Positions 11,915-46,542 of a stretch of 64,000 nt of DNA are shown piece by piece. The first letter of the stretch is position 1. Each line of letters begins with the position of its first letter. The stretch lies in contig JAHFED010000011.1 of NCBI GenBank assembly GCA_023248635.1, positions 1-64,000 on the forward strand. The letters are read 5' to 3'. A model generated the notes under the pieces. The model saw only the letters and a list, made by a program, of their open reading frames with translations. It did not search any database and had not been told where the DNA came from. This stretch comes from Myxococcales bacterium (GTDB lineage: Bacteria > Myxococcota > UBA727 > VGSZ01). Both the position numbers and the translations under genes were made by a program.

Positions 11915-13086
11915 CGACGTCGCCCTCGCAGCAGCCGCTGGTAGGTGGCCGCCACCTTTTGAAACACCAGGCGCTCATCGAATTTCCTCTCCGCCAGAGC
12001 CCGTGCTTCGCCGCCGAAGCGGCGGGCGCGGTCTGGATCGGCGACGATGCTGCCAATGGCCGCGGCCAAACAAGCCGGGTCGCGCCAAGGCACGAGCAAG
12101 CCGGTGACGCCGTCGACGACCACCTCGCGGCAGCCGCGGATGTTGGTGGCGACCACTGGGCGTTGCATCGCGGCAGCTTCCATAGGCGCGCGGGGAAAAC
12201 CCTCGCGGTGACTGGGCAACACGAAGACATCCATGGCTGCATAGAAGCGGGGCATGTCCTGGCGCAAACCCGCAAAGACGCAGACGTCGTCGACGCCACG
12301 GCCAAAGAGCGCGCGTGCCCGGGGCAGCGTGAGCGCATCGCTCTTTTCGACGTCGGTGGGGCCGATCACCAACAGCCGCCAGCGGCGTCCGGAATGCTGC
12401 ACCCGCAGCAGTTGCATTGCTGCAAAGAGATCGAGGATGCCCTTCTCTTCAACCAAGCGGCCGACGAAGCCGACGACGACGTCTTCGGTTCCGAGCCCCA
12501 GGTCTTTTCTGACTTCCTCGACATCGTCGACCGTGACCGTGCTGGGCGAGAAGCGTTGCAGATCAATGCCGTTGCCGAGCAGCTCGAGCTTCGACGAGGG
12601 CGCGATGTGCTCCGCGATGGCGGTGCGGATGTCCTCGGGATTCTGGCTGAGAATGTGGTCGCTGTTGGCCGCCGCCACCTGCTCGAGGAGGATGTAAAAA
12701 CGCCGCGCCCAGGGCCGCATGTGATCGTGAAAATAGAAGCCATGCAGCGTGTTGACGACGACGGGAACGCCGACGAGCCCCGCCGCCAACTGTCCGAGCA
12801 GCCCCGGTTTCGGGTTGTGGGTGTGCACGATGTCGAAGCGCTCCCGTTGAAACACCCGGCGCAAGTCGAGCAGCGCCTCGGCGTCGCGCGCCGGCGCAAA
12901 GCTGCGGGTCATCTTGACAGCGATGTGGCGGATGCCCTGTTGCTCGAGGAAGGGCACGTCTGGCCCGGCGTTCGAGATCGCGGTGACGTCGTAGCCCTGC
13001 GCCTGCAGGAACTTCAGCTGGCCCAGCAGGAGGTAGCGCAGCGAGAGATCGATCGTGCACACATGGGCTACGCGAGGGCGGCTCAT
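11911..13086 (-). CDS. Family 4 glycosyltransferase
   Basis: The protein is 391 residues from ATG 13086 (MSRPRVAHVCTIDLSLRYLL). It resembles the EpsD/PglA-type group: the long N-terminal domain contains VHTHNPKPGLLGQLAA and VVVNTLHGFYFHD, and the C-terminal domain has LPSHREGFPRAPMEAAAM with the donor-site Glu residues. PglA-like enzymes add the second sugar to bacillosamine-PP-undecaprenol, which fits its place after the EpsC-L-M-N genes; that assignment is inference. It overlaps both neighbours by 4 bases. Confidence 0.9.
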   Translation of the reverse strand: MSRPRVAHVCTIDLSLRYLLLGQLKFLQAQGYDVTAISNAGPDVPFLEQQGIRHIAVKMTRSFAPARDAEALLDLRRVFQRERFDIVHTHNPKPGLLGQLAAGLVGVPVVVNTLHGFYFHDHMRPWARRFYILLEQVAAANSDHILSQNPEDIRTAIAEHIAPSSKLELLGNGIDLQRFSPSTVTVDDVEEVRKDLGLGTEDVVVGFVGRLVEEKGILDLFAAMQLLRVQHSGRRWRLLVIGPTDVEKSDALTLPRARALFGRGVDDVCVFAGLRQDMPRFYAAMDVFVLPSHREGFPRAPMEAAAMQRPVVATNIRGCREVVVDGVTGLLVPWRDPACLAAAIGSIVADPDRARRFGGEARALAERKFDERLVFQKVAATYQRLLRGRRR

Positions 13087-13535
13087 GGAGTCTTCATGTT
13101 CAGGGCGCTGGCGCGGCCAGGCGTGTGGCCGCCGTCGGCATAGACGACGTTGAAGGCGGCCAGGTTCTCTGTGCGCGCTTCCAAAAAAGGCGCGCCCTCG
13201 AGCTCCAGCCACGAGTGTCCGCAAGGTGTCCCGTCTGCGCCCGCGCGGACGCCCAGCACGAAGCGCACGGGCAGTCCAGCGGCGCGCAGCGCGAGTGTGC
13301 GGGCCAGCGTTCGCGTCAGGCAGGTGCCACCGCCGCCGGGAAAGATCCCCAGCAGGCCCTCGACGCCCCTGACAACCTCAGCGGCGACGTCGGCGTCGAC
13401 GACGACGTCCGAGGCGGTGGGGACCCGACCAAGCGCGCGGGGCAAAGCCACGAAGCGCGCCACGCCGGGAGCGAGGGTCCGGCCCACCAGCAGAGGCACC
13501 GCGATGCGCAAGGCGTCTCTCAGGGCGATCCTCAT
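13083..13535 (-). CDS. Lasso-peptide B2-type transglutaminase-fold protease
   Basis: The product is 150 residues from ATG 13535, overlapping the aminotransferase stop. The fold matches the Transglut_core3/lasso B2 family of leader peptidases. The catalytic Cys lies in GGTCLTRTLARTLALRAAG (about residue 72) and the His in CGHSWLELEG (about 107), with an acidic residue following. The usual N-terminal helical part (MRIALRDALRIAVPLLVGR) is also present. In lasso systems B2 cuts the leader after B1 (PqqD-like) has presented it. A PqqD-like gene and a kinase lie 3 kb upstream in the same transcript. No lasso cyclase gene is near. I infer a proteolytic role on a ribosomal peptide. Confidence 0.8.
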   Translation of the reverse strand: MRIALRDALRIAVPLLVGRTLAPGVARFVALPRALGRVPTASDVVVDADVAAEVVRGVEGLLGIFPGGGGTCLTRTLARTLALRAAGLPVRFVLGVRAGADGTPCGHSWLELEGAPFLEARTENLAAFNVVYADGGHTPGRASALNMKTP

Positions 13536-15279: not shown

Positions 15280-15926
15280 GCCTGGCTCCCCATGAACTCG
15301 GGCATGGTGACGTGACCCGCGGCGCTGATGCCATCGCTCCTGACGACCTGCAGCGCCGTCTTTGCGAGGATGCCGACGTCGACGGCGAAGGAGACGTGGT
15401 CGACGTACCAGGTGTCGAAAGCGAGCTTCTCGTCCCAGCTCAGGGTGTTGCGGCCGTGCACCTGCGCTTGGCCAGTGATGCCCGGTTTGACGTCGTGGCG
15501 CCGGGCCTGCTCGGGGGAATAGCGGGCGAGGTATTGCATCAGCAGTGGGCGCGGACCGACCAGACTCATGCTGCCTTCGACGACGTTCCAGAGCTGCGGC
15601 AGCTCGTCGATGGAGAGCTTGCGCAACACTGTCCCCAGGGTCGTCAGGCGTTGCTCATCGGGCAGCAGCGCGCCGCCAGCGTCGGTCGCGGTGGTCATCG
15701 TTCTCATCTTGACGACTTGAAAAGGCCGGCCATGCAAGCCGGGGCGCTGTTGGCGAAAGAGCACCGGCGCCCCGATGGTGACCCGCACAGCAAGGGCGGC
15801 AGCAGCAATGACGGGAGCGGCCATCACGATCGCAGGGACGGCGACGGCGAGGTCGAGGGCGCGTTTGCCAAAGAGGCTGTAGGCCGACACCTCCTCGAGA
15901 TAGCACCGGCGACGACGAGACGTCAT
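15276..15926 (-). CDS. epsL: Initiating phosphoglycosyl transferase, EpsL/PglC family
   Basis: The protein is 216 residues: the small monotopic class with one N-terminal re-entrant hydrophobic segment (about 24-48). The catalytic Asp-Glu pair lies in [15 protein letters not shown] (D107, E108), followed by MSLVGPRPL. It transfers a phospho-sugar, probably phospho-bacillosamine, to undecaprenyl phosphate, starting the repeat unit at the cytoplasmic membrane. Its start overlaps the end of the kinase-like gene by 4 bases, so initiation of the glycan and the peptide-modifying genes are co-expressed. Confidence 0.93.
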
Positions 15927-16789
15927 TTGCGCCGTGGCTCAGGCACCGGCCCTTTCACTCCCAGCACGGACTCGACGGCAGCAGCAATGCACCGCGGCTC
16001 GACGAGGGCGTCACCGCCGATCCGAAGAGCGCAGCCGGGGAGCCTCGCCAGCTTCCCCAGACAATGGAGATGCTCAGCGCCGAGCGGCAGTCCCGGCCAG
16101 GCCACCATCGCGCTTCCGTGCAGGAGCAGAGGCAGGACCAACGAGGGCGACATCCCCTCGGCCGTGGTGAGCGGCGCCTGGTGAATGGAAGGGAACACCA
16201 AGCGGCCGACCACGACGACCGCCCCAGCGCCGCCTGCGTCGTCGACACCCACGACAGCTTTGCCCGCCGACGAAAGGCCGGGCAGCACGCTCGCGCGCAG
16301 CTCTGGGAACATCTCCAGGGTCGCCACGCCGACGTGGAGGGGGCGCAAGAGCCCCCGCGCCACCACATCCTGCCCGCGGCACTGAACGAAGACGACGTCG
16401 TCGGTGAGGAGGTGCTGCCGTGCGGCCAGCGCTAGCGTCGTCGTCGTCTTGCCTGCACCGCTCTCGCCGACGATCAGCGTCGCCGAGCCCGTGTCATCGG
16501 TGACGAGACCGGCATGCACGTGGAACCAACCGTCGTGTCGCTCGATCAGGGCGCGGGCGACCACGAGCAGCACGCTGTCTGCGAGGTGGGCCGTGTCCGC
16601 GCCATCGTCGACGAGGCAAAGCGAGATGCTGCCGTCGCGGTCGACATCGGCCCTGGCTCGTCCGACGATGACGACGACCCAGCCGCCCGGCTCGCTGTGG
16701 ATCTGAAGAGCGCCCTGGCGGAACACCGCTGGCCCCGCGGGCGCGAGAGCGGGCCCTCGGCGGCGCACGATGCTCATCGTCGCCGGCAT
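15923..16789 (-). CDS. HPr-kinase-related kinase (HprK-rel type) next to PqqD
   Basis: The protein is 288 residues from ATG 16789, which overlaps the PqqD stop as TGATG. The P-loop is IVGESGAGKTTTTLAL (about 106-121), followed by LLTDDVVFV, whose paired Asp matches the HprK/PEP-carboxykinase fold. It lacks the HprK N-terminal domain. Relatives are found beside PqqD-like proteins and, in some lasso clusters, phosphorylate the peptide. Here the peptide or protein target is unknown; the candidate precursor at 32807-32947 is one possibility. The gene is sandwiched between PqqD and the initiating glycosyl transferase. Confidence 0.8.
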   Translation of the reverse strand: MPATMSIVRRRGPALAPAGPAVFRQGALQIHSEPGGWVVVIVGRARADVDRDGSISLCLVDDGADTAHLADSVLLVVARALIERHDGWFHVHAGLVTDDTGSATLIVGESGAGKTTTTLALAARQHLLTDDVVFVQCRGQDVVARGLLRPLHVGVATLEMFPELRASVLPGLSSAGKAVVGVDDAGGAGAVVVVGRLVFPSIHQAPLTTAEGMSPSLVLPLLLHGSAMVAWPGLPLGAEHLHCLGKLARLPGCALRIGGDALVEPRCIAAAVESVLGVKGPVPEPRRK

Positions 16790-17073
16790 CAGTCGGCCGT
16801 CAGGATGTCTTCGGCAACGAGACGACCGACGAAGGCTTCGACATCGAGACGGGCCGTGGCCTCGTCGACAGCGAAGCGCGCCAACAGCGCCTGCACCAAC
16901 GCATTGTCGTCGAGGCGAGCATCGGAGTCGTAGAGGTGCCACAGCAGCACACCAGTTCTCGACAACGGGTAATAGCAACGCTTCTCGAGGTGCACGACGA
17001 CGCCCGTCCCGTCGGGGAGCTCGGTGAGCAACGCATCCTCGCGCCGTCGGTGCCGCATTCCGTGGTCTAGCAT
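16789..17073 (-). CDS. PqqD-like RiPP recognition element protein
   Basis: The product is 94 residues from ATG 17073; ATG 17091 or 17058 are alternatives. The pattern matches the PqqD/lasso-B1 winged-helix fold: short strands (VVVHLEKRCYYPLSRTG), then LLWHLYDSD and the helices LVQALLARF and DVEAFVGRLVAEDIL. Such proteins bind the leader of a ribosomal peptide and hand it to tailoring enzymes. It overlaps the kinase and is translated together with it, and probably with the upstream deacetylase. Confidence 0.82.
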   Translation of the reverse strand: MLDHGMRHRRREDALLTELPDGTGVVVHLEKRCYYPLSRTGVLLWHLYDSDARLDDNALVQALLARFAVDEATARLDVEAFVGRLVAEDILTAD

Positions 17074-20785: not shown

Positions 20786-20807
20786 GACTGTCCTCGTTCT
20801 TGGCCGC

Positions 20808-23460: not shown

Positions 23461-24599
23461 GGAGCAACTCCGCTGCCAAAAAAACGCTTCGACGGCGGCG
23501 ACGGCGGCTGCCAGGCGGCCAGCACCGCAAGGATGCGCTGGGCGCTGGAGCCCTCGCCCTGGGCGGATTCCACGTGCAGTCGGGCCTTGGTCTCAGGCAG
23601 CACTGCCAGGCGCAGCGCGTTGGTGATGGTGGTGGCGTCGGCGTCGACGTCGATGACGCTGGCCCCACGCCGCCGGCCGCGTTGCCGATTTCCGACATTC
23701 ACCGCGGGCAGCCCGACGGCGGGGGCCTCCAACAAGGCGCTGGAGCTGTTGCCCAACATGGCGTCGGCGATGCGCATCAGCCCCCAGTATCGACGTTCGC
23801 CGAGCGCTTCGGCGACGATGCGACGTGGTGCCTGCGCCGCGGCGAGCAGCACGGCGCGCGTCGTGGCGCCCCCCGGGTCCGAGTTGGGCAGCGTGATCAC
23901 ATAGGTGGCAGGGACGGCGTCCATGGCAGCGACGACGGCTTCGGCTTCGACGCGGGGATCGATGCCGAGGGTGGCTGGATGCAGTGTGACGATGACGACG
24001 GGGGGCTTCAGAGGCAGGCCCAAGCTGAGCTCCAGCTCGGCCCGATCGCTGAGATCGCTGCGCTGCAGGTTGTCCAGGCCCGGGGCGCCGACGACGTGAA
24101 TGTGCGCTGGGTCTTCGCCCATGGCGCGCACACGGGCGGCGTGATCGAAGTGCGACACCAGGTGCAAGTGGCTCATCTTGGTGATTGCGTGGCGCAGGGC
24201 GTTGTCGAAGGCGCCTTCGGTCTCTTCGCCGCCGTGCAGGTGAACGATCGGAATGCGCTCCAACGTCGACGCCAACGCCGCCCCCGCGGTCTCCAGGCGA
24301 TCACCGACCAGCAGCAGGGCCTCGGGACGACGCTGGGCCAACGCGCGACCCACCAGGGCGAGTGCGCCGCCAGCTTGATCGACCCCGCTCATGTCGGCGC
24401 TGCTGAGCCAATCGAGGTGCTCGTCGACGACAAAGCCTGCTTCGACGACGTCCTTCACGGTCGCGCCAAAATCGGCGCTCTCGTGCATGCCGCCCGACCA
24501 GAGCGAGAGGGCGAAGCGCGCGTCGTCGCGCAGGGCCACGCAAGTGGAGCGCAGAATGCCCCAGTCCTGTCTCCCCGTTGTGAGCACGGCGATGCGCAT
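23457..24599 (-). CDS. legG: Hydrolysing NDP-sugar 2-epimerase, LegG/NeuC type
   Basis: The protein is 380 residues from ATG 24599, where TGATG joins it to legI. MRIAVLTTGRQDWGILRS, GDRLETAGAALAS, IVHLHGGEETEGAFDNALRH and GNSSSALLEAP are the UDP-GlcNAc 2-epimerase signatures. It epimerises C2 and removes the nucleotide, giving the mannose-configured sugar that LegI condenses with PEP. Confidence 0.92.
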   Translation of the reverse strand: MRIAVLTTGRQDWGILRSTCVALRDDARFALSLWSGGMHESADFGATVKDVVEAGFVVDEHLDWLSSADMSGVDQAGGALALVGRALAQRRPEALLLVGDRLETAGAALASTLERIPIVHLHGGEETEGAFDNALRHAITKMSHLHLVSHFDHAARVRAMGEDPAHIHVVGAPGLDNLQRSDLSDRAELELSLGLPLKPPVVIVTLHPATLGIDPRVEAEAVVAAMDAVPATYVITLPNSDPGGATTRAVLLAAAQAPRRIVAEALGERRYWGLMRIADAMLGNSSSALLEAPAVGLPAVNVGNRQRGRRRGASVIDVDADATTITNALRLAVLPETKARLHVESAQGEGSSAQRILAVLAAWQPPSPPSKRFFGSGVAP

Positions 24600-25642
24600 C
24601 AGCGGAGATCCTCCCAAGCAATGAGGCGGCCGGCGTCGACGTCGCGGGCCACGACTCGGCCGACGACGTCACGCCAACGCGTGGGCTCGATGCCGGTTGC
24701 TGGGCGCAAGGCCTCGATGTTGGCCGCCACCACGACGTCACCGGCGCGCAGCTTGGCAGTCCAAAACAAACTGCGGCGAGCGACCCGACGCACCTCGAGC
24801 TCCGCCGGCCGCGGGCGCTTGTCCCCGTCACCCAGCGCAGCCTCGACGCCGCGCAGGGCGACGATCAGCCTCTTCATCTCTTCGGGCTCAAGCGAAGCAC
24901 GGTGATCGGGACCCGCCATCGAGCGCGAAAGGGTCAGGTGTTTCTCATAGAGTTCGGCACCGGCAGCCACCGCCGCCAGGCCCATGTCGACGCCGAGCGT
25001 GTGATCGGAGAAGCCCACGGGACACTGAAAGGCCGCGCGCATCGACGCCATCGCCCGCAAGTTGCAGTCACTCGCAGCGGCTGGATAGCTCGACACACAA
25101 TGAAAGAGTGCCAACGGCGCCCCAGCGGCAACCACGAGATCCCGAGCGGCAGCGACGTCGTCGAGCGAGGCCATCCCCGTCGACAAGAGCAGCGGCACAC
25201 CCGCGCCCGCGACGTGGGCCAACAAGAGGTGGTTGGTCAATTCGCCGGACCCGAGCTTGAGAGCGCCAACGCCAAGCCGAAGCAGCAGGTCGGCACTCTC
25301 CGCGTCGAAGGGGGTGGAGAGAAAAAGGATGCGTCTGTCGCTGGCCCGCGCCATCAAGCGTGGCCAAGCGTCGTCGGGCAGTGACAAGTTTTCGAGCATT
25401 TCCTGCTGCGAGCCTTGGCCAGTGGCCTGTTGCTGATAGGGCGCCTTCTCCGCCGACGACGACACCAAACGCGCCGCGCGAAACGTCTGGAACTTCACAC
25501 AGTCGGCCCCCGCGTCGGCGGCGGCGTCGACGAGACGCTCTGCCAGGGCGACGTCGCCGTTGTGGTTCACGCCGGCCTCGGCGATGACGAAGCAGGGCGC
25601 GGCTCCCCCAATCGACCGCCCAGCGACGATGACGTGGCTCAT
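24599..25642 (-). CDS. legI: Legionaminate (nonulosonate) synthase
   Basis: The protein is 347 residues from ATG 25642, with its start in the stop of the upstream acyltransferase. The NeuB TIM barrel shows FVIAEAGVNHNGD, VKFQTFRA, LKLGSGELTN and VGFSDHTLG; a C-terminal antifreeze-like SAF domain has RSLFWTAKLRAGDVVV. It condenses PEP with the six-carbon sugar. The family cannot on its own separate legionaminate from sialate or pseudaminate; the ptm neighbours favour legionaminate. Confidence 0.92.
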   Translation of the reverse strand: MSHVIVAGRSIGGAAPCFVIAEAGVNHNGDVALAERLVDAAADAGADCVKFQTFRAARLVSSSAEKAPYQQQATGQGSQQEMLENLSLPDDAWPRLMARASDRRILFLSTPFDAESADLLLRLGVGALKLGSGELTNHLLLAHVAGAGVPLLLSTGMASLDDVAAARDLVVAAGAPLALFHCVSSYPAAASDCNLRAMASMRAAFQCPVGFSDHTLGVDMGLAAVAAGAELYEKHLTLSRSMAGPDHRASLEPEEMKRLIVALRGVEAALGDGDKRPRPAELEVRRVARRSLFWTAKLRAGDVVVAANIEALRPATGIEPTRWRDVVGRVVARDVDAGRLIAWEDLR

Positions 25643-26328
25643 GGGCTGGCCTGCGGCGACGAGGGCACCCGCTCGAAGAAGTGCGCTCTCACGCTGCGAT
25701 GGGTGGGTTTCACGACGACGTTCGGACCGCTGCCGAAGACCAACGACGACGACGGAATCGCGCCGCCCTTCACGTTGCATTGGGGACCGAGCCAGACGTT
25801 GTCGCCGATGGTCGTTGGGCCGCTCACCGTGGCGCCGTTGAAGAGCACGACGCCTTCACCCAACGACGGATACTCGAGGTCGATGGAGCCGCCGATGTTG
25901 ACGTTTTGGTAGACGAAGAGGTGGTTCCCCAGGGCCTTCGCGCGTCCGATCACGGTGCCGACGGGATGCTGAAAGCAGAAGATCTCGGGCATGCCGACCT
26001 CGAAGAAGACGTCGAGACCGTGCAGTGCCTTGTTCAACGCGTAGCTTTTGACAGCGAGTCGACGATCGCCGCTGGCGATGTGGATGGTGTTGCCGACGAA
26101 CCAAAGGAACGAGGCGTATTGGTCGGTGTGCAGATGATCGAAGGTGGCCTGCAACCCGTCGAAGTAGCCCCGGCGGCGCACGTTGAGGAAACAGTGCTCC
26201 AAGCGCTCGAGGGCGACGCCGACGTGGGGGCGCAGCTCGGCAGGTGTGACCTCGCGGTCGGGAAAGAAGTTCGTGAGCTGTCGCGCGAGATAGGTGGCGA
26301 TGTCGTCGGTGGTCAGCGTGTTCTTCAT
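25639..26328 (-). CDS. Left-handed beta-helix acyltransferase, serine-acetyltransferase-like
   Basis: The protein is 229 residues from ATG 26328, overlapping the HisF-like stop by 4 bases. An N-terminal helical region is followed by hexapeptide repeats (IGRAKALGNHLFVYQNVNIGG, SGPTTIGDNVWLGPQ) with the CysE-like HPVGTVIG. It probably acylates a sugar. Its place inside the nonulosonate block suggests an O- or N-acetylation of that sugar, perhaps replacing LegH, but the substrate cannot be read from the sequence. Confidence 0.75.
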   Translation of the reverse strand: MKNTLTTDDIATYLARQLTNFFPDREVTPAELRPHVGVALERLEHCFLNVRRRGYFDGLQATFDHLHTDQYASFLWFVGNTIHIASGDRRLAVKSYALNKALHGLDVFFEVGMPEIFCFQHPVGTVIGRAKALGNHLFVYQNVNIGGSIDLEYPSLGEGVVLFNGATVSGPTTIGDNVWLGPQCNVKGGAIPSSSLVFGSGPNVVVKPTHRSVRAHFFERVPSSPQASP

Positions 26329-27110
26329 CCCCGCCACCCAGGCTCCCAGGTCGCCAGCGGGATGCCCCGGCTCACGATGTGGTCACGGGCCTCGCGCAGG
26401 CCGCCGCCGAGGAAATTGAAGATGTTGGCCGTGCAAGCCGCCGTTCCGAGCGGGTCTTCGAGCCACGCTGCGAGATGTTCGAAATTGCCAACGCCCCCAG
26501 ACGCGATCACCGGAATGGACGTCGTCGCCGCCACCCGTCTCAACACTTCGAGGTCGTATCCTTGGCCGGTGCCGTCGCGATCCATCGACGTGAGCAAGAT
26601 CTCGCCAGCTCCCAGCTCGACGGCGCGGGCCACGGCTGTCTCGACGCTGTGCCCGGTGCCGCGCGCGCCCTGCTGCGAATACACCTCCGTCGACGTCGTT
26701 GTGCGCTTGTAGTCGATGCTGGCCACGATGCACTGGCTCCCATAGGTGGCGACGAGCTCACGCACGAGCTCTGATTCTTCGTACAGCGGCGTGTTCACCA
26801 ACAGCTTGTCGGCGCCGTTGCGCAAGAGCAGCGCGGCATCATCGAGCGAGCGGATGCCGCCGCCGACGGTGAGGGGGACAAAGACCCCAGCACAAAGCGC
26901 AGCGACGTCGGCGGCGAAGTCGTGCATGTGGCCGGGCTCGCGTGACACGTTGAGAACCACCAGCTCGTCGATGGCGTCGGCGATGACGGCGAAATTGTAG
27001 TTCTTCTCGAGCCAGCCGAGGTTGCCGGCCTTGGACACGCGGAAATTGCGACTCAGCCAGAAGGCCCCCTTCTGCCAGAGCAAGGCGAAGATGAGCCGAC
27101 GCTTCAGCAC
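26325..27110 (-). CDS. HisF-like subunit of a sugar amidotransferase
   Basis: The protein is 261 residues from GTG 27110. The (beta-alpha)8 barrel of imidazole-glycerol-phosphate synthase is recognisable (VPLTVGGGIRSLDDAA, IVASIDYKR, VIASGGVGNFEH). The strand-1 catalytic Asp of true HisF (CLDV) is missing: here it reads IFALLWQKG. It therefore probably only channels ammonia from the HisH-like partner to the PP-loop protein, as in the WbpG/PseA systems that make acetamidino groups. It overlaps the HisH-like gene by 7 bases. Confidence 0.88.
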   Translation of the reverse strand: MLKRRLIFALLWQKGAFWLSRNFRVSKAGNLGWLEKNYNFAVIADAIDELVVLNVSREPGHMHDFAADVAALCAGVFVPLTVGGGIRSLDDAALLLRNGADKLLVNTPLYEESELVRELVATYGSQCIVASIDYKRTTTSTEVYSQQGARGTGHSVETAVARAVELGAGEILLTSMDRDGTGQGYDLEVLRRVAATTSIPVIASGGVGNFEHLAAWLEDPLGTAACTANIFNFLGGGLREARDHIVSRGIPLATWEPGWRG

Positions 27111-27724
27111 GCAGCCGCCAACTGCAAAAAAGATTGAATCAACTTCAGGCCGTTCGACTGGCTCTTCTCGGGATGGAACTGCACACCCATGACATTGCCG
27201 CGCTTCACCACCGCCGCGAACTCGCCCCCGTAATCGCACCAGCCCGCCACGTCGTCGTCGTCGCTGCACACCATGCGGTAGCTGTGAACGAAGTAGAAAT
27301 CAGCGGAGGCACCCAGACCGCCGCAAAGAGCGCGTCCCTGCTCGGTGAAGCGCGTCGCGTTGAAGCCGACGTGAGGCACAGGCCTGTCAACAACATCCAG
27401 GCGCTCCACCCGTGCATCGATGAAGCCGAGGCCCGCAGCGACGCCGTCTTCGCTCCCTTCTCGCGCCAAGAGCTGCATGCCCAAGCAGATGCCCAGCAGC
27501 GGCAGGCCGTCGTCGACAAGGCCGTGCAGGACCTCTCGCAGCCCGCGCTCCTCGATGTGTTGCATCGCGCGAAAGAAGGAGCCGACACCCGGCAAAATCA
27601 AGCCATCACAGCCCGCGAGCAGGGCTGCGTCGTCGGTGATGCGGACTTCGGCCTTGAAGAGCTCAAGCGCGCTTTGCACCGAACGCAGATTGCCCATGCC
27701 GTAGTCGACGACGCCGACAATCAT
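27104..27724 (-). CDS. HisH-like glutamine amidotransferase subunit
   Basis: The protein is 206 residues. The class I glutaminase triad is intact: nucleophile Cys in GICLGMQLL, and His-Glu in GVQFHPEKSQ. PGVGSF and the start VVDYGMGNLRS are as in HisH. It releases ammonia from glutamine for the PP-loop protein encoded just upstream, with the HisF-like barrel as conduit. It overlaps both. Confidence 0.92.
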   Translation of the reverse strand: MIVGVVDYGMGNLRSVQSALELFKAEVRITDDAALLAGCDGLILPGVGSFFRAMQHIEERGLREVLHGLVDDGLPLLGICLGMQLLAREGSEDGVAAGLGFIDARVERLDVVDRPVPHVGFNATRFTEQGRALCGGLGASADFYFVHSYRMVCSDDDDVAGWCDYGGEFAAVVKRGNVMGVQFHPEKSQSNGLKLIQSFLQLAAAC

Positions 27725-28893
27725 TCGATCTTGAAGTTCGGCTTCCAGATGCCATCTTCTTTCTTTAAAATATTCTTGTTTGCGTGCTGGTCCAACACGG
27801 CATCGAACTCCTCCCGCGTCATCTCAAAATACCTCAAATACTGCACAATGAAGTCTTCGGGCAAAGGCTGCCAGTCATAGACTTTCACGAGCTCGATGGC
27901 CTGTTTGCGGGTCATCGCGCCGCGGCGAATATCGATGCCCGCGTCTTGACTGCAACGTGCCCAGCCGAATTTCAGGTAGGCCAGATACATGTGGAGGTCG
28001 AAGAGGCACGTGTCGGTTTGGGCGAAGTTCGTATAGGTCCCGGACGACGCATCCTCGCGCTCCTGCAGCCCGCATTTCTCCTTGGCGATCAGATAGTGAT
28101 GATAGGGATCCCAGTCTTCGAAATACGACCAGTGCGAGGCCTGGGGGTTCAGCTTCTCGATGGCGTCCATCGTCGGGAAGCGCCACCAGTACAGATCGGC
28201 TTCGCTGTGGTTAGTTCCGATCTTCTTGAGCTCTTCCATGGGATCATGACCACTCAGATATACGCGAATTGCATAGGCCATGGAGTAGGACCATTGATTC
28301 TTCGTCTCCGTACTTCCACCGTACTCAATTTCACCGTCTTCACCATACATAATAAACGGAATATCTAAGGCGAGGGCGATGCGCAGCACGCAGACCTGCA
28401 AGTTGATCTGCCAACCGAAGAGCGGACGTCCCTGTTCGATGAAACCAATGCGGTTCAGCTTTTGGGTGATGACGGGGTTCGGCGTGACCTGGATGTGATC
28501 GAACCCGCTCGCCTTGAAACGCTCCAGGTTCTCGTTTCCCAGCCGCAGGGCCAGCGGCACAGTGACAGTGATGGCCAGGGGGTGCATGCCGAGCTTGTGC
28601 TTGAGCTCATGCGACACGTAGCTGCCATCTTTGCCCCCGCTGACACCAACGAGCACGTCGAAGCCGTCGGTCTTGCGCACCCGGTCGCACAGGGCTTCGA
28701 GCTTCTTCCAGCGGCCCTCCCAGTCGACGAGGGTCTTTTTTTCTTCCCCCCAGACGCAGGCGTTGCACCAGCCGCGGTGGTCGAACTCGATGCGCGGGCG
28801 CGTCGACGACATCACGCAGTTTCGGCAAAAGACGAGCTCCCCCTCGTGGCGCTTCGTCGACGACGGCAGGTCGATCAGCTTGTGTGTCACCAT
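27721..28893 (-). CDS. N-acetyl sugar amidotransferase, WbpG/PseA/LegX-like
   Basis: The protein is 390 residues from ATG 28893. The N terminus has two Cys pairs (FCRNC, WCNAC), probably a metal site. The ATP-pyrophosphatase PP-loop is VGVSGGKDGSYVS, and later motifs include YGEDGEIEYGGS and FEDWDPYHHYLIAKEKCGL. The family converts an acetamido into an acetamidino group using ammonia from HisH/HisF partners. With legI nearby the product may be an acetamidino legionaminate. It has lower GC than its neighbours. Confidence 0.88.
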   Translation of the reverse strand: MVTHKLIDLPSSTKRHEGELVFCRNCVMSSTRPRIEFDHRGWCNACVWGEEKKTLVDWEGRWKKLEALCDRVRKTDGFDVLVGVSGGKDGSYVSHELKHKLGMHPLAITVTVPLALRLGNENLERFKASGFDHIQVTPNPVITQKLNRIGFIEQGRPLFGWQINLQVCVLRIALALDIPFIMYGEDGEIEYGGSTETKNQWSYSMAYAIRVYLSGHDPMEELKKIGTNHSEADLYWWRFPTMDAIEKLNPQASHWSYFEDWDPYHHYLIAKEKCGLQEREDASSGTYTNFAQTDTCLFDLHMYLAYLKFGWARCSQDAGIDIRRGAMTRKQAIELVKVYDWQPLPEDFIVQYLRYFEMTREEFDAVLDQHANKNILKKEDGIWKPNFKIE

Positions 28894-29879: not shown

Positions 29880-31847
29880 GTGGACGACGCCAGCACGCGC
29901 CCTGATTTTCGCCTCGATGTTCAGGGTCTCCGCGCCATCGCCATCGTCTTGGTCGTCGGCTACCACGCCGGTTTCGAGAGGGTGTTCCAGGCCTTCGGCT
30001 TCAGCGTCTTCGGCGGAGGCTACGTCGGCGTCGACGCTTTCTTCGTCGTGTCCGGCTTTCTCATCACCCGCGTGTTGTTGCGGGAGCTGCGTACGACCGG
30101 GAGCCTCTCCTTGTCGAAGTTCTACAGGCGTCGCGCCCGTCGTCTCTTGCCCCTGTCGATCATCACGCTTGTCTTCACTCTACTGACTGCATTCATCGCG
30201 CTGCCGGCGTTCGAGTGGCACATCCTTGCAAAAGATGCGGCCGGTTCGGCGCTCTTTCTAGCGAATGCGAACTACGCCATTCAGACCACAGACTATCTTG
30301 CTGGCGATGCGGTCCGGAGTCCATTTCTTCACTTTTGGTCACTAAGCTTAGAGGAGCAGTTCTATCTTGTCTGGCCAGCCATCATCCTGGTCGGACGCCG
30401 CAGACCCTGGGGAATTCTCAGCCTCGCTGTTGGGATCGCTGCCGCCTCCCTCATCGTGTCCATCTGGATGACGTCGTCGGGTTCTCCATGGGCTTTCTTC
30501 GGGCTTAACAGCCGCGCCTGGGAGCTGTCGGCGGGTGCGCTCTTGGCCGTGTTGGAGCAGCGCCTGCGCTGGGCGCCCCAGTTTGCTTCTGTGCTTCGCG
30601 CTGTCGGTCTCGCCCTGCTGCTGGGTGCCGTGACCTTCTTTACCGAGTCGACGCCCTTCCCGGGCCCCGCCGCACTCGTGCCCGTGGTGGGGACTGCGCT
30701 TTTCATCGCTGCCGGTCCGTCGGCGTTGCTGTCGCGGCGACCCTTCCAATTCGTCGGCGGGCTTTCGTACTCCTGGTACCTCACGCACTGGCCTTGCCTG
30801 GTCTTGGCCGGACCACTGCTCGACTTCCCCAACAATTCACCGCTGTGGGTGCGCGTGGGCGCCGTCGCCGTCTCCTTCGGGGCCGCCTGGCTCTTGCATT
30901 CCTTCGTCGAGGCGCGCGCATTGCAATCGAGCCTGCTCCTACGTCCTCGCCCAGCAATGGCATTGGCCGTGGGCGGCATGGTCGCAGTCGGCGTCGTCGC
31001 TGGCCCCGCCTTGGTGGTGGCCGGCAAACGCAGCCACGCCGACGACGTCAAGACGCCCGATGGGGCTCGCTTCGACCGCGTTGCAAACGTCAAGTCTTGC
31101 TCCCAGGATTTCTACGACACCGAGGCGACGGCCTGTGTGCTGGGCGACCCCTCGGTATCAACGACGGTTGCCCTCGTCGGCGATTCCCACGCTGAGCATC
31201 TCGTGCCGGCCTTCGAGAAATTGGCTGGCGAGCGTCATTGGCGCCTCTTGGTGTTCACGAAGTCGGCCTGCCTGCCCTTCGCCGCCCCCCGCTACCTTCC
31301 CCGCTTGCGCCGGGCTTATGCAGAATGCGACGCCTGGCGCGATAACGTCGTGGCTCGAATCTACGTCGAACACGTTTCATTCGTGTTTCTCACCTCCGCA
31401 CTTTCGACCGCAAATTCAGTTCTGGATTCCGCCGGAAATCTCGCGACCCCAGAGATGCTTCCATCCATCTGGTCTCGCGGAATTTATGAGACAATAAAAT
31501 CCCTGCCGATCAGCACCATTGCGTACTACATTGAAGACATTCCAACGCCATCAACGGATGTGCCCGTCTGCTTGGCGGACCATGTCGACGGCAGGGCGTG
31601 CGCGATCTTGCGGCCCAATCCGCGGGCAGCCCCCTTCGCCGCCGCCCTGGTTGCGGGAATGGCCGAAGCCGGCCGAGAAGGGGCCTTCGTCGTCAGTTTG
31701 TCGAGCGCGGTGTGCCCCAAGTTTCCCTGCTCCGTCCGCGACGACGACGGCGTCATCCGCTTTCGCGATGGCAACCACATGACGGCCACCTACGCTGCGC
31801 GACTGGCGCCGGCGTTGACAGCCGCCTTGGGTCTCCCCGACCCCTGA
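29880..31847 (+). CDS. OafA-type membrane acyltransferase with C-terminal SGNH domain
   Basis: The protein is 655 residues from GTG 29880, with AAGGAAG just upstream. The first 380 residues form an acyltransferase-3 domain of about ten helices: the conserved His in VLVVGYHAG, VDAFFVVSGFLITR, FYRRRARRLLP and FWSLSLEEQFYLVWP. The C-terminal SGNH hydrolase fold has GDSHAEH and DGNHMTATY with the Asp-His pair. It O-acetylates surface sugars. It is the only plus-strand gene in the 43-kb locus and overlaps the convergent nucleotidyltransferase gene by 58 bp. Confidence 0.93.
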   Translation: MDDASTRPDFRLDVQGLRAIAIVLVVGYHAGFERVFQAFGFSVFGGGYVGVDAFFVVSGFLITRVLLRELRTTGSLSLSKFYRRRARRLLPLSIITLVFTLLTAFIALPAFEWHILAKDAAGSALFLANANYAIQTTDYLAGDAVRSPFLHFWSLSLEEQFYLVWPAIILVGRRRPWGILSLAVGIAAASLIVSIWMTSSGSPWAFFGLNSRAWELSAGALLAVLEQRLRWAPQFASVLRAVGLALLLGAVTFFTESTPFPGPAALVPVVGTALFIAAGPSALLSRRPFQFVGGLSYSWYLTHWPCLVLAGPLLDFPNNSPLWVRVGAVAVSFGAAWLLHSFVEARALQSSLLLRPRPAMALAVGGMVAVGVVAGPALVVAGKRSHADDVKTPDGARFDRVANVKSCSQDFYDTEATACVLGDPSVSTTVALVGDSHAEHLVPAFEKLAGERHWRLLVFTKSACLPFAAPRYLPRLRRAYAECDAWRDNVVARIYVEHVSFVFLTSALSTANSVLDSAGNLATPEMLPSIWSRGIYETIKSLPISTIAYYIEDIPTPSTDVPVCLADHVDGRACAILRPNPRAAPFAAALVAGMAEAGREGAFVVSLSSAVCPKFPCSVRDDDGVIRFRDGNHMTATYAARLAPALTAALGLPDP

Positions 31848-32767
31848 GCGGTGGCACCGAAAGCCCGAGCTGTGATGCGGCGCCAGCGGCTGAGGTGGGC
31901 CACCGTGAGGCGGTGGCCATCAACGAGATCGCCGGTGAATCTCAAGTGCTTCGACGTCGGCACCAGCACCCGCAGGACGCCGGCTGGATCGCGGCGGACA
32001 AAGCGCGCGCTCCGAGCGAGCACTGCAGCGAGACCCCAGGCCGCCTGCGCCGCCGGGGAAGGATCGAGAAAGAAGCCAGCGAGCCAGCCGTCGGCGCCAT
32101 CGGGCACGTCGCTGCCGCGGGCCACCCGCAGACTCAAACCCACCCCATCTGGGCGCCCACGAAGGGCGGCCAGTTCTGGGGCGCGCTCGACGAGGCGGCG
32201 CACATCGTTCACATGACGGCGCCAATAGCGCAGGTCGCCGAAGTGGTGCACGGCGACGTGGGCTGCCACCTGTTCGAGCAGGTGCAAGGCACAGGGAACG
32301 CGCACCGTGGTTCCCAGCACCTCCACGTCGACGCCGGCGCTGTAGCAGGCATCGAAGGCCCCGGCGTCGCCCGCGGCATGGCTTTGAAGGTGCAATTCGA
32401 CGAGCACGCCGTGGGGCGAGAGTAGCACCGGCAGTTGGTGCGTCGGGGCGTCGAGGGAGGGGTCGCCAGCGTGGGTCGTGGACGGTGGCCCCGCGGGTGA
32501 TCGAAAGCCCGCGGCGACGAGGGCGTCGAAGGCGGCGCGGACCTGGTCGGGGCGGACCCAAAGATCGAGATCGTCAAGGTGCCGCTCTTCGGGACGCACG
32601 ACGCCGCTGACCAGCAGCGCGCCTCCTTTGATCGGCAGCGAGGGGATGAAGGTGGAACGAAGAAGACCCGTGGCGCGCACTAGCGTTGCGATCACCAAGG
32701 CGTTGCGCGCAGCAGTCTGGCGCTCGGCGTTTCCCAAGAGGGGTGGCGTGGCGTCGTCGATGCTCAT
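31790..32767 (-). CDS. NTP_transf_5-type nucleotidyltransferase
   Basis: The protein is 325 residues from ATG 32767. LPIKGGALL (about 44-52) and ERHLDDLDLWVRPDQ (Asp65, Asp66, Asp68) are the lysine/glycine and metal-binding aspartate motifs of the uncharacterised PF14907 nucleotidyltransferases. This family is often found beside PqqD, HprK-like and lasso-type genes. It lies 39 bp downstream of the candidate precursor ORF and shares its strand. Its 3' end runs 58 bp into the acyltransferase gene on the other strand. Confidence 0.78.
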   Translation of the reverse strand: MSIDDATPPLLGNAERQTAARNALVIATLVRATGLLRSTFIPSLPIKGGALLVSGVVRPEERHLDDLDLWVRPDQVRAAFDALVAAGFRSPAGPPSTTHAGDPSLDAPTHQLPVLLSPHGVLVELHLQSHAAGDAGAFDACYSAGVDVEVLGTTVRVPCALHLLEQVAAHVAVHHFGDLRYWRRHVNDVRRLVERAPELAALRGRPDGVGLSLRVARGSDVPDGADGWLAGFFLDPSPAAQAAWGLAAVLARSARFVRRDPAGVLRVLVPTSKHLRFTGDLVDGHRLTVAHLSRWRRITARAFGATAQGSGRPKAAVNAGASRAA

Positions 32768-32806: not shown

Positions 32807-32947
32807 TCAGTCACCGAAATCGACCGTCCCGCCGTCTGGATTCACCGTGCCAGAAAAGAGAGTCACGGCAGCAATCGGCGTCGCAGGCCCCAACACAGGC
32901 GGTTCGTAGGGTTGGTTCTCGCGCGGTTCATCAGAGCTAGAAATCAT
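32807..32947 (-). CDS. Candidate lasso-like RiPP precursor peptide
   Basis: The ORF encodes 46 residues from ATG 32947, preceded by GAGG with 6-base spacing; an in-frame ATG at 32959 would give 50. The leader has YEPPVL, which fits the lasso-leader pattern YxxPxL, and a Thr exactly ten residues after that Leu (AAVTLF), the usual position two residues before the cut. Cleavage after TL would leave the 16-residue core FSGTVNPDGGTVDFGD, with Asp at core position 8. The usual leader Gly is Thr. The gene sits directly upstream of the NTP_transf_5 gene. Peptide fate and product are inference; no cyclase is seen in the window. Confidence 0.6.
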   Translation of the reverse strand: MISSSDEPRENQPYEPPVLGPATPIAAVTLFSGTVNPDGGTVDFGD

Positions 32948-33000
32948 CGCAAACCTCATTGCTCACAGACACTGTAGATAGCCTAGCTAGATTGAGTTTT

Positions 33001-33060
33001 GATATTCAAGACACTGCCGCGTCTTGAAGCTCGATATTCAAGACGCTGGCGCGTCTTGAA
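33001..33060. repeat. Two tandem palindromic hairpins
   Basis: A 28-bp unit (33001-33028 and 33033-33060) occurs twice, separated by GCTC, with two mismatches. Each unit is itself an inverted repeat: TTCAAGAC/GTCTTGAA with an 8-base loop, and TTCAAGACGC/GCGTCTTGAA with a 4-base loop. It lies between the propeller lipoprotein stop and the candidate precursor and could terminate the former or regulate the latter. The stretch 32948-33060 is clearly AT-richer than the surroundings. Confidence 0.85.
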
Positions 33061-33078: not shown

Positions 33079-35928
33079 TCAGTCCGCCAGCACTGTTGCT
33101 GTCCCCGTGCGCACCGCGCTGGAGGAAGTCACCGGGGAGTCGACGAAGGATCCGCCGATGGTCGTCAACTCACCTGCGACGGCGACGCTCGTGACCGAAT
33201 TGTTGTTCACCGATGCGCCGAAGCTAAGGGTGCCCGTGCCGCGCATACCCAACACGCCATAGCGCTTGGCACCAAGGCCAGCGCCAAAGGAGGTGAATGC
33301 CCCACCGACGTGAATGTTGTTCCCAGCGACGTCGCACGCCGAGATCGCCCCGTTCGGGGCCGTCGAGAAGGCCCTCACTCCGGCGGTGGTTACGACCGCA
33401 AGATTGGTCCGGGAAAGGCCAGCAATGGTGGTGAAAGACCCGCCGGCGACGAAGAAGTCTCGACCTGGATCCACGCAACTCACGCGGCCATTGGTGGTGA
33501 GGTTTTGCGCCAACGATGCCGCCGCCGGCGCCGGAGTCAGCACGCCCAGGTTCGTGGCACCGAGCAGGCTGGCGAAGTCGCCACCGACAGCGACGTTGCC
33601 ATCGGCCAACACGGCCACGCTGCGTACGACTTCGTTAGCGGCGGCGTTGATGTCGGCGACCCAGGCCCCGACGACGGCACCGGTCGCATCGGTCACGCCG
33701 AGTCCGCCGCGGGCGCTGCCGTTGATGTTGGAGAAGGCCCCGCCCAGATAAACGCGGCCGGCGGCGTCGACGGCAATGGCGTGCACGCCAACTTCCGTGC
33801 CGGCTCGGGTGATGGTGGCAGTCCACGCCCCGTCGACGACGCCCGTGGTCGCGTCGACAGCAACGACGTCAGAGATAGCAGCCCCACCTACGGTGGTGAA
33901 GGTCCCGCCGATGTAGACCCGGGATCCGCGCACGGCGAGCGCGCGCCCTATGCCGGTGGCTCCCAGGTTCGGGTTCCATGCGCCCGCCTGGCCGCTGGTC
34001 AGGCTGTAGGCGGCGGCGCCGTTGCGGTTCACACCACCCGCGGAGTCAAAGCTGCCGCCGACGAACGCCACGCCACCTGCGACGGCGATGGCAGCCACGG
34101 AGTTCTTGGTCGTGTTCGTCGTATTGTTGGGACCAACGGCGGCAGCGAAGGGCAGGAGGGTGCCAGCAGCGTTGACGACGGCGAGCCGGGCGCGTGCGGT
34201 ATCGCCACCAAAAGCCGTGAATTGGCCGCCGACGTAGATGTTGCTGGCGGCGTCCACGGCGAGAGCATCCACTGTCCCCGTCGTGGCTCCGGGGTTTGGC
34301 GCCTGGAGGGCACCGGTCACGCCGTCGACGACGCCGAAGCGGCTGCGGCTGGCTCCGACGAGGTTGGTGAAGGCGCCACCGATGACAACGTTGGCACCGT
34401 TGACGGCGACTGCGTTCACGGCGGAAGTCGCCGCGGGCGCCCACGCCAACAACGCACCGGTGGTCGCATTCAGGGCGGCCAGCCGGTTGCGCGTGGAGCC
34501 ATTCATCGTCGTAAAAATACCACCCAAGTACAGCGTATTACCACTGAGGGCCAAGGTGAAGACCGAGGAGTTCGCGATCGGCTGGGTCCACGTGAAGGCC
34601 GCGCCCGTTGCCGTGTCCGTGGCAGCGATGCCGTTGGCAGCCGCCCCTCCCACCGTCGTGAACGCCCCGCCCAGGTAGAGCGTTCCTGGCGACCCGGCCG
34701 CACCCACCAAAGCGCGCACCTCTCCGTTGGCGTCGGCGACCCACGCATCGATGCTGCCGGTGGCGGCCGATAGCGCCAAGACGTTCGCCCGGGCGGGACT
34801 GGCCAGGGCAATAATGCCCCCGACGAACAGCTTGCCATCCACCAAGGCCAGCGCGCGCACGGCGGTGCCGGTGATTGCGGGCGGAACGAAGGCGGAATCC
34901 AAGCTGCCGTTCGACAGGATGTGCGCGACGAAAGAGCGCGCAGTGCCACCGACGCTGGTGAAGGTTCCTCCAATGAAGACCCCACCACTGCCGTCCGCGA
35001 CCGCGGCGTTGACGTTGCCAGGTTCGACGGCGGCGGAGGGGAGCCTCGGACTGCCCGGTGACCCCGCCGCAGCATCGTTGAGCAACGCCAGCGATCCCGT
35101 CCGCGGACCGACGTAGGTGAAGCCGCCAGCGACGTAGACGACGCCGTTGCCCTCGGCGGCAGCGAGGACACTTTGGTTCGCGTCGGCACTCTCGGCGGTC
35201 CAAAAATCAGTGGCGATGGTGGCGCTGCCGCATTCACCCGCCGACGCACAGCGGCGTCCGACGATGCGGCCCGTGAACTTGAAGCGCCCGCCCGGGTTGC
35301 GGAATTTCCAGCGGACGGTGTCGGCCGCGCCGGCCACCGCCGAGCCTGGGGCTCCAGGGCTTGGCAACAACAGCCCGTAACGAAACATGCCGAGACTGGT
35401 GTTCAGCGCGGCGCCACCGACATTGATATTGGGCGAGGCAACATCGCTGTTGCAAATCGTGTTGTTTGCGCTCGGAACGTCGAGGTTCGTTATTGTCAAA
35501 AACTCCACATGTGCGGCGGATACGCCCGTGGGGAAAAAAGCCCGAACCGTAACGTCCAGATCAAAGCTGTCGACGCCGGCGCCGCAGCCACCTGCCACAG
35601 CGACGGGCGCGGTCGACGGCGCGATGCAGGCCCCAACGCCGTTGCACTCCACCGCGAACTCGGCGGTGTCCGCCGCCGTCGCTGTCCCCCGCGTGCCGTT
35701 CTTGTCCTCCGTCACTGGGGCCAAGGTCACGGCCTGCTCCAACCGGCCCGGCGCCTCGACGAGGTTACCCGCGGCATCATGGAAGCCGAGGTGAACTTCG
35801 CCGCTGGCGGGGTCGACGAAGCCCTCAAAGGTACCAAGCTCTTCGAGCCCTTCGCCGATGCCTGCTGGGCGGGCGCAGCCGACGATCATCAGAACGAACA
35901 GGGGTGAAACGCGACGGGACATGCGCAC
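33079..35928 (-). CDS. Surface lipoprotein with about 14 propeller-like repeats
   Basis: The protein is 949 residues. The N terminus is a lipoprotein signal (LFVLMIVGC, Cys about 18), so it is probably on the outer membrane. After some 220 residues rich in paired Cys, the rest consists of about 14 units of 45-55 residues, each with a core like VYLGGAFTTVGG (also IYVGGQFTAFGG, VFIGGTFTSVGG). This resembles delta-60/Kelch-like beta-propeller repeats and may form two seven-bladed propellers. Myxobacteria encode many such proteins. A role in matrix or capsule binding is possible from its place, but unproven. Confidence 0.85.
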   Translation of the reverse strand: MRMSRRVSPLFVLMIVGCARPAGIGEGLEELGTFEGFVDPASGEVHLGFHDAAGNLVEAPGRLEQAVTLAPVTEDKNGTRGTATAADTAEFAVECNGVGACIAPSTAPVAVAGGCGAGVDSFDLDVTVRAFFPTGVSAAHVEFLTITNLDVPSANNTICNSDVASPNINVGGAALNTSLGMFRYGLLLPSPGAPGSAVAGAADTVRWKFRNPGGRFKFTGRIVGRRCASAGECGSATIATDFWTAESADANQSVLAAAEGNGVVYVAGGFTYVGPRTGSLALLNDAAAGSPGSPRLPSAAVEPGNVNAAVADGSGGVFIGGTFTSVGGTARSFVAHILSNGSLDSAFVPPAITGTAVRALALVDGKLFVGGIIALASPARANVLALSAATGSIDAWVADANGEVRALVGAAGSPGTLYLGGAFTTVGGAAANGIAATDTATGAAFTWTQPIANSSVFTLALSGNTLYLGGIFTTMNGSTRNRLAALNATTGALLAWAPAATSAVNAVAVNGANVVIGGAFTNLVGASRSRFGVVDGVTGALQAPNPGATTGTVDALAVDAASNIYVGGQFTAFGGDTARARLAVVNAAGTLLPFAAAVGPNNTTNTTKNSVAAIAVAGGVAFVGGSFDSAGGVNRNGAAAYSLTSGQAGAWNPNLGATGIGRALAVRGSRVYIGGTFTTVGGAAISDVVAVDATTGVVDGAWTATITRAGTEVGVHAIAVDAAGRVYLGGAFSNINGSARGGLGVTDATGAVVGAWVADINAAANEVVRSVAVLADGNVAVGGDFASLLGATNLGVLTPAPAAASLAQNLTTNGRVSCVDPGRDFFVAGGSFTTIAGLSRTNLAVVTTAGVRAFSTAPNGAISACDVAGNNIHVGGAFTSFGAGLGAKRYGVLGMRGTGTLSFGASVNNNSVTSVAVAGELTTIGGSFVDSPVTSSSAVRTGTATVLAD

Positions 35929-44703: not shown

Positions 44704-46542
44704 CTATGCGGCGCTGGCGGTCAACTCTTCCCTCGAGAAATGCTTGCAACGCACGCGCAGCTCGCTCCAGCTACCGACGTCGACAATGCGGCCCCGCTCG
44801 ACGACATAGATGCGATCGAAGTCGCGGGTTGTCGTCAAGCGGTGGGCCACGGACACAACGGAGCAGCTCGACAGATTGGCACGCAATGCAGCAAAGAGTG
44901 CCGTCTCCGTCGCTCCATCAAGAGCATTCGTGGCCTCATCCAGAACAAGAAAGCGGGGCTGCCGGTAGAGTGCCCTCGCGATGCCGAGACGCTGTCGTTG
45001 TCCCCCCGACAGGCGCACCCCCCGCTCACCAATGAGCGTTCCATAGCCGTTCGGCAAGTCCGCAACAAAATCATGTATTTGAGCTATTTGGCACACTTTT
45101 TCAACGCGCGATTTATCTATAGCATCGCGCGCCACACCGAATGCAACATTAACGCAGATACTGTCATCCAACAGAAAAATCTGTTGTGGCACATAGGCCG
45201 CGTTTTTCTGCCAACCCCAACGCTCACTCGGCGGCACAGGCTGTCCATCGACAGCAAGGCAACCAGAGTGCGGACTCAGCAAGCCCAAGAGCAGGTCTAC
45301 CAGAGTGCTTTTCCCCGCCCCGGTCGGTCCGACGAACGCAACCCACTCGCCCCGACCGACGACGACGGAGATGTCCTGCAGCGTCGCACGCGCGGTATTT
45401 TGGTACGCAAACGATGCAGCGATGAGCTCTACCTTGTCGACAAAGTCGCGTTGAGCGACGGCGCACATTGGCACCTCGCTGCCGAGCTTCCCAGCCAGAT
45501 CGCGGTGGAGAACATCGAGGGCACCGAGATTGAAACGGAGCTGGGTCAGACCACCAAACACGGTCTGAAGTGCAGGCAGGATGCGGTAGGCCGAAAATGC
45601 ATAGAGGCCAAGCACAGGCAAAACCTGCTGGACGGCCCGGCCGGTGCCGAGCCAGTAGAGCACCATAATCAGCACACCTGAAAAGGCAATCGATTCGATG
45701 GCAAACTTGGGTAACTGTGCAACAATTGTGTTAGTTGCTTGTCCCACCGCATAGCGATGCGACAACACCGAAAACTCATTGATCGCAACGGGCTCAAGGC
45801 CATACAATTGCAGTTCCTTGACGCCGCCAAGAGCTTCCTGGGCAATCTTGTAGCGGCGCTGGTTCAGGTCCACCCGCTCGAGCCCCCGCTGCGCCACGGA
45901 CCGTCTGACCACGGCGAAGAGCGCGCCATAAATTCCCCCGAAGATCACGATGACTCCAGCGGCCATGACCGGGTCAATGACGAAGAGAGCTGCAGAGACG
46001 GCGATGACGACGACGAGGCGAGCACTCAGTTGTACGCCTTGGACGATGACACCGATGACGACGGAGCTGACTTCTGCGAGAACATTCTTGCCAAGGTCGG
46101 CCGAATTTTGGGTCAGGAAAAATTCATACGGCTGTCGCAAATAGGCAGAAAGAAGTCGCACAGCTATCGTGTGGTTTCTCATCCAAGAAAACCGCAGGAG
46201 CGCCCAGGTCGTCGCAGCGCTGACGATGTTTCCGACGGTCACAAGGCACAATACAGCGACACCGACGGCGAGAAAAAACGTCTCTTTATCCTCAAAACCA
46301 AAGGTCGTGAAAGCCCATTGCAGCTTCTGGTTGCGGTCCACCAGAGTCGGATCTGCCAAGAGGCCCAGGAAGGGCACGATCGACGCCACTCCGGCCGTCT
46401 CGAACAAAGCCATCATCACGACGGCGGGCATGAGCTTTCCGAGCTGTCGACGCTCCCGAGGGGTTAGGATGTCCCACACCTTGCGCGGCCATGGGACGTC
46501 GGCTCCGTCCTTCGTCGCAGCGGCGACGGCTCCTTCGCTCAC
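44704..46542 (-). CDS. ABC exporter, PglK-like lipid-linked oligosaccharide flippase
   Basis: The protein is 612 residues: six N-terminal helices fused to one ATPase domain. The start of the membrane part (LFETAGVASIVPFLGLLADP) is typical of PglK. Walker A is GPTGAGKST, signature LSGGQRQR, Walker B FLVLDEATNALD (Asn where most have Ser). PglK flips undecaprenyl-PP oligosaccharides. No Wzx-type flippase is present, so it may serve this role for the whole locus. It overlaps the tyrosine-kinase gene by 4 bases. Confidence 0.9.
   Translation of the reverse strand: MSEGAVAAATKDGADVPWPRKVWDILTPRERRQLGKLMPAVVMMALFETAGVASIVPFLGLLADPTLVDRNQKLQWAFTTFGFEDKETFFLAVGVAVLCLVTVGNIVSAATTWALLRFSWMRNHTIAVRLLSAYLRQPYEFFLTQNSADLGKNVLAEVSSVVIGVIVQGVQLSARLVVVIAVSAALFVIDPVMAAGVIVIFGGIYGALFAVVRRSVAQRGLERVDLNQRRYKIAQEALGGVKELQLYGLEPVAINEFSVLSHRYAVGQATNTIVAQLPKFAIESIAFSGVLIMVLYWLGTGRAVQQVLPVLGLYAFSAYRILPALQTVFGGLTQLRFNLGALDVLHRDLAGKLGSEVPMCAVAQRDFVDKVELIAASFAYQNTARATLQDISVVVGRGEWVAFVGPTGAGKSTLVDLLLGLLSPHSGCLAVDGQPVPPSERWGWQKNAAYVPQQIFLLDDSICVNVAFGVARDAIDKSRVEKVCQIAQIHDFVADLPNGYGTLIGERGVRLSGGQRQRLGIARALYRQPRFLVLDEATNALDGATETALFAALRANLSSCSVVSVAHRLTTTRDFDRIYVVERGRIVDVGSWSELRVRCKHFSREELTASAA

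Follow-up and report, generated by a model that had tools for sequence, protein, structure and literature searches.

In May 2026 a class of cyclase-less RiPPs was described from capsule loci of Bacillota, the linear polyphosphorylated peptides (LPP; Popov et al. 2026, PMC13381572). LPP genes encode an RRE, an HprK kinase whose target is Ser3 and an NTP transferase, and LPP precursors carry the motif YxxPxVLxHQxIxFETxxS. No role has been assigned to such linear phosphorylated RiPPs of capsule loci (PMC13381572). Lasso leaders, for their part, carry YxxPxL at positions -17 to -12 and a key residue at -2 (PMC10368454). The kinases LppK (PMC13381572) and BsfK of Bradymonas (PMC10368454) both phosphorylate Ser3, with BsfK taking Thr as well, and the hexose on phosphoserine in pseudomycoidin depends on PsmN, a related NTP transferase (PMC9266682). 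Among the discrete lasso-type RREs without a cyclase counted by RRE-Finder, about 300 occur with radical SAM enzymes (PMC7470986).

The stretch analysed here (the window: 64,000 nucleotides of a Myxococcales genome, contig JAHFED010000011.1) holds a locus for polysaccharide synthesis and export with a legionaminic-acid-type sugar. The pathway for that sugar occupies 19799-28893 and comprises LegB, PseF-like, NeuC, NeuB and HisH/HisF-like proteins and a putative sugar amidotransferase. Within this setting the original prediction placed a 46-codon ORF with a lasso-type leader and several partner enzymes:

32807..32947, minus strand: precursor peptide ORF, 46 aa, a leader with YEPPVL, then T29, then LFSGTVNPDGGTVDFGD
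31790..32767, minus strand: NTP_transf_5 nucleotidyltransferase-like protein (PF14907, E 4e-21; DxD-type motif HLDDLDLWV)
16789..17031, minus strand: PqqD-like discrete RRE (B1) (PF05402, E 4.5e-13)
15923..16777, minus strand: HprK-like kinase with the H-K-D-D signature (FHVHA, GESGAGKTT, LLTDD)
13083..13535, minus strand: B2-like leader peptidase (Transglut_core3; PF13471, E 5.5e-13), retaining Cys in TCL and His in GHSWL

The ORF is present as described and translates to MISSSDEPRENQPYEPPVLGPATPIAAVTLFSGTVNPDGGTVDFGD (46 aa; an alternative in-frame ATG at 32959 gives a 50-aa version). The other particulars stand as well: YEPPVL is there with T29 the tenth residue past L19, a GAGG ribosome-binding site lies 6 nt ahead of the ATG at 32947, and 39 bp separate the ORF from the NTP_transf_5 gene downstream. 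The PqqD-like, HprK-like and B2-like genes do share its strand, but lie 15-19 kb further downstream.

Relatives supply the evidence that supports reading this ORF as encoding a real, conserved peptide of the precursor type, with a leader of lasso type and ties to PqqD, B2, HprK and NTP_transf_5. A first search of related genomes matched a short ORF in G053 (E 9.5e-4 for that one genome); a G002 match from the same search lay in an anti-coding frame and was discarded as chance. Fifteen copies are found in four Anaeromyxobacteraceae genomes, two in G053, one in G071 and five to eight each in G082 and G083, and a scan of genome contigs returned just two loci, both in uncultured Anaeromyxobacter MAGs. 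A profile of 12 Anaeromyxobacteraceae peptides alone picks out the window ORF as the single clear match among 1087 window ORFs (E 1.2e-5); it scores 21.1 bits, whereas the highest of 20,000 shuffles reaches 11.5. The bare pattern Y..P.[LIM]-X9-T likewise occurs once among the 1087 window ORFs of at least 25 aa. Its 12 matches among some 4200 short ORFs from other loci comprise seven family members, two PqqD-linked ORFs and three that appear to be chance; given such chance matches, the leader motif by itself is weak evidence, and the family profile is strong evidence. On alignment the relatives share Y-x-P-P-x-[IL]-X9-T-L-F-[ST]-G with GG further along, and Y, P, P, T, L, F, G and GG are invariant across the aligned peptides. 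Purifying selection acts over the motif in the 15 Anaeromyxobacteraceae copies (pN 0.085, pS 0.445), which are therefore translated and constrained. The window peptide belongs to this TLF[ST]G family by its profile match and by the lipoprotein domain that adjoins it (below), and no description of such a peptide/lipoprotein family was found in the literature searched. Gene calls in the relatives came from a simple codon-usage script, and since four of the five peptide genomes are of one family, the co-occurrences reported here are not five independent events.

The original prediction called for a conservation search of this kind, and held that loss of the leader motif from relatives keeping NTP_transf_5 and PqqD would count against it. 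In the fragmented genome G001 the motif was not found; the Anaeromyxobacteraceae relatives that carry both enzymes contradict such loss, for in them the motif is kept. G001, of the same genus as the window genome, has a similar locus that retains NTP_transf_5, PqqD and HprK. Neither peptide nor B2 was found in this genome, the contigs of which are short and stop close by.

The original prediction missed the partner, the gene 131 bp upstream of the peptide ORF. That gene and the gap between it and the peptide are as follows:

33079..35922, minus strand: partner surface lipoprotein, with lipobox MIVGC, an N-terminal domain of ~200 aa, then delta-60/DUF5122-type beta-propeller repeats
33005..33060, no strand assigned: two 24-nt palindromes in the lipoprotein-peptide gap, TTCAAGACGC..GCGTCTTGAA, folding z -7.2

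A profile of six Anaeromyxobacteraceae lipoprotein domains recovers the N-terminal domain of the window protein (E 2.8e-16, against 0.02 for the best among 3000 shuffles). In those relatives the lipoproteins have in common an N-terminal domain of ~190 aa past the lipobox, followed by varied repeat domains (Vgb-like propellers, apparent RCC1-type repeats and others). A gene for this domain adjoins 15 of 16 peptides, that is, 14 of the 15 Anaeromyxobacteraceae copies and the window peptide, and the order lipoprotein then peptide in G071 is that of the window. Of 195 phylum genomes, six have the domain, namely all five peptide genomes and G096; in the latter (C1:7892027-7892515) it forms part of a protein of 2014 aa, next to which neither a peptide nor RiPP enzymes were seen. 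A structural model of the domain is all-beta, with a mean pLDDT of 43.5 from three sequences that makes it too poor for a fold search. The idea that the peptide core mimics the lipoprotein's first hairpin (TFTGEVDxxxGTF) was rejected, its profile score ranking 3063 among 20,000 shuffles. The palindromes, of which the window has no other copy, form a strong hairpin that resembles a terminator or attenuator and lacks a T run, and a scan of the gap for intrinsic terminators found these and no consensus terminator; given this strong hairpin, a transcript shared by lipoprotein and peptide may or may not exist.

So constant a neighbour raises the possibility that the peptide serves the lipoprotein as a small accessory (a chaperone, regulator or translational leader) and that B1, B2, HprK and NTP_transf_5 have another target, particularly as just some of the peptide genes adjoin the enzymes. 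We consider this unlikely. The conserved part of the peptide is precisely the RRE-binding motif together with the cleavage/phosphorylation site, B1 and B2 are found in five of five peptide genomes, and no PqqD was found in the Anaeromyxobacteraceae genomes tested that are without the peptide (G030, G048, G078 and G079).

By alignment the catalytic residues of the enzymes are intact: B2 retains its Cys and His, the kinase its P-loop, His and DD, and NTP_transf_5 its DxD. The B2-like protein scores 38.1 bits against NF033537 (NCBIfam lasso_biosyn_B2), above the cut-off of 33. Apart from the PqqD and B2 of the window, the 6.5 Mb genome has no PqqD and no strong Transglut_core3. In G082 (L138) the genes for lipoprotein, peptide, lipoprotein, radical SAM, a B2-PqqD fusion, NTP_transf_5 and HprK lie on a single strand; the same gene set is present in G071 (L137) and is split over two contigs in G083. 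All four window enzymes find their best matches in these peptide operons, with G001 closer for PqqD and NTP_transf_5, and match them better than AsnB-type lasso clusters, including the one of the window's own family. The kinase clade is confined to seven of 195 phylum genomes, namely the five peptide genomes, G001 and G046. The family is thus conserved and associated both with its lipoprotein and with four types of enzyme. Lasso-type clusters that do contain AsnB, along with PqqD, B2, HprK and short peptides, are seen at L144 (G053 C64, 736-4667) and L149 (G003 C15, 3415-13703), where the short peptides are MEEKKLDAATKQEPAPRPWVTPSFERLPLGEALSGSGAGADDSAFGYS and RRYSKPELRRHGGLLEVTRAQGTG.

The one enzyme of the Anaeromyxobacteraceae operons absent from the window genome, at least as that clade, is the radical SAM protein, which is found in every Anaeromyxobacteraceae carrier. 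Its absence would suit a scheme in which the product is a radical-SAM RiPP, the window genome has lost the enzyme or has another in its place, and the window peptide is a relic. We consider this scheme highly unlikely: B1, B2, kinase and NTP_transf_5 are all intact with their catalytic residues, and so is the peptide motif.

As for a true lasso peptide, in which B1/B2 would cleave ahead of Phe1 and a cyclase encoded away from the cluster would join Phe1 to Asp8, the window peptide has the leader for it, its spacing from YxxPxL to Thr(-2) being identical to that of lasso leaders (PMC10368454); B1 and B2 proteins are present, and the window genome has six Asn_synthase matches outside this contig. 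What it lacks is a macrolactam cyclase with the cluster and a conserved Asp/Glu acceptor at core positions 7-9. The original prediction proposed a lasso core with Asp8; the relatives (FTGSGPDGGG, FTGSGPSSGG, FSGQSSQTNAGG) do not conserve Asp/Glu at 7-9, so that this part of it is not supported, and Phe1 would itself be unusual. No Asn_synthase match lies on the window contig, no Asn_synthase-type cyclase was seen in the Anaeromyxobacteraceae peptide operons, and no full cyclase of this type is encoded in G082 or G083, both 98% complete and each with five to eight peptide copies. Two carrier genomes without a lasso cyclase therefore argue that the peptide is not a lasso peptide, and we give that possibility very little probability. 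That the ORF is a chance one with a coincidental motif is harder still to credit, for against its GC3, which is below that of the adjoining genes (0.60 vs 0.70-0.79) and counts against coding, and the peptide not found in G001, stand a profile score far beyond 20,000 shuffles and every other window ORF, and a conserved lipoprotein partner.

The best reading is a peptide that is never tied into a lasso, a linear, phosphorylated and possibly glycosylated RiPP. More fully, the ORF is likely to be the precursor of a linear RiPP that is matured by PqqD, HprK, NTP_transf_5 and B2 and acts with the lipoprotein at the cell surface. To judge from homologues, PqqD (B1; 16789-17031) would bind the YEPPVL leader and hand the peptide to the HprK-like kinase, which would phosphorylate the conserved Ser of T-L-F-S. 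By analogy with LPP, T-L-F-[ST]-G would put Ser/Thr where HprK-type kinases act (T-x-x-S), and the acceptance of Thr by BsfK (PMC10368454) suits the Thr of most Anaeromyxobacteraceae peptides. NTP_transf_5 (31790-32767) is predicted next to attach a sugar or nucleotide to the phosphate, and B2 to cleave the leader at, or directly past, the invariant Thr; no macrolactam would form. Both cleavage and phosphorylation of the peptide would thus probably be the work of enzymes taken over from lasso-peptide pathways. The product might then, more speculatively, be exported and act at the surface with the paired beta-propeller lipoprotein, in or on the exopolysaccharide layer. A tentative candidate for its export, which could equally serve the polysaccharide only, is the following gene, 39% identical over 217 aa to the exporter adjoining an Anaeromyxobacter operon:

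44704..46542, minus strand: MsbA-like ABC exporter of the polysaccharide locus (PF00664 and PF00005)

Counted against this explanation are G001, without peptide or B2, the missing radical SAM, the 15-19 kb to the enzymes and the low GC3. A bolder and rather doubtful extension is that a phosphate-linked peptide-sugar is a linker or tag coupling modular beta-propeller lipoproteins to exopolysaccharide, each peptide being paired with its own lipoprotein while one central B1/B2/kinase/NTP_transf_5 set matures all of them; if true, lasso-type RiPP machinery would here have a role that is structural and not antibiotic. Beyond such proposals, a surface lipoprotein beside nearly every peptide copy, in two distant Myxococcota lineages, is a partner that could reveal the role of linear phosphopeptides, and the peptide family supplies a small, testable gene set. 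These observations further suggest that, outside Bacillota, B1 and B2 of the lasso type work as a pair with no cyclase.

In the HPr-rel-A system (NCBIfam TIGR04352/TIGR04353) an HprK-related kinase accompanies a PqqD-like protein, as here, although the window proteins fall under the curated cut-offs (15.4 of 200 and 17.4 of 35 bits). The discrete lasso-type RREs without a cyclase of RRE-Finder (PMC7470986) are lasso-type PqqD proteins without peptidase or cyclase, and that work just counted them, describing neither precursor nor partner. Phosphorylated lasso peptides (Bsf of Bradymonas, PMC10368454; paeninodin; pseudomycoidin, PMC9266682) likewise employ PqqD, B2, an HprK kinase and a nucleotidyltransferase, and space YxxPxL and residue -2 as the window peptide does; the macrolactam cyclase and the conserved acceptor Asp found in them are both missing from the window system. 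In LPP the likeness extends to the cyclase-less state, the capsule or polysaccharide locus, the discrete RRE, HprK kinase and NTP transferase, and the equal spacing of a YxxPx[VL] leader and a T-x-x-S phosphosite. Against the LPP motif the window peptide fits at Y1, P4, L6, I12, T16 and S19 and departs at L7, H9, Q10, F14 and E15. LPP has an SpI-type peptidase, whereas no SpI-like leader peptidase is among the window genes scanned and a B2 cysteine protease is there instead. What look like SpI-type LPP relatives outside Bacillota do occur in other clusters: L147 (G083 C70, 2291-11147) has three radical SAM genes, PqqD, an ABC exporter, NTP_transf_5, a peptide with a WSKPEL leader and an S24/S26-like peptidase fused to a GNAT domain, and in G053 an S24/S26-like peptidase adjoins PqqD (L148, G053 C93; also listed, L145, 6358-7122). 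The window family differs further from LPP in belonging to Myxococcota, in its paired beta-propeller lipoprotein, in its other core sequence and in Anaeromyxobacter relatives with multicopy precursors and radical SAM. The window system is accordingly filed as LPP-like in its working, and not as a member of LPP.
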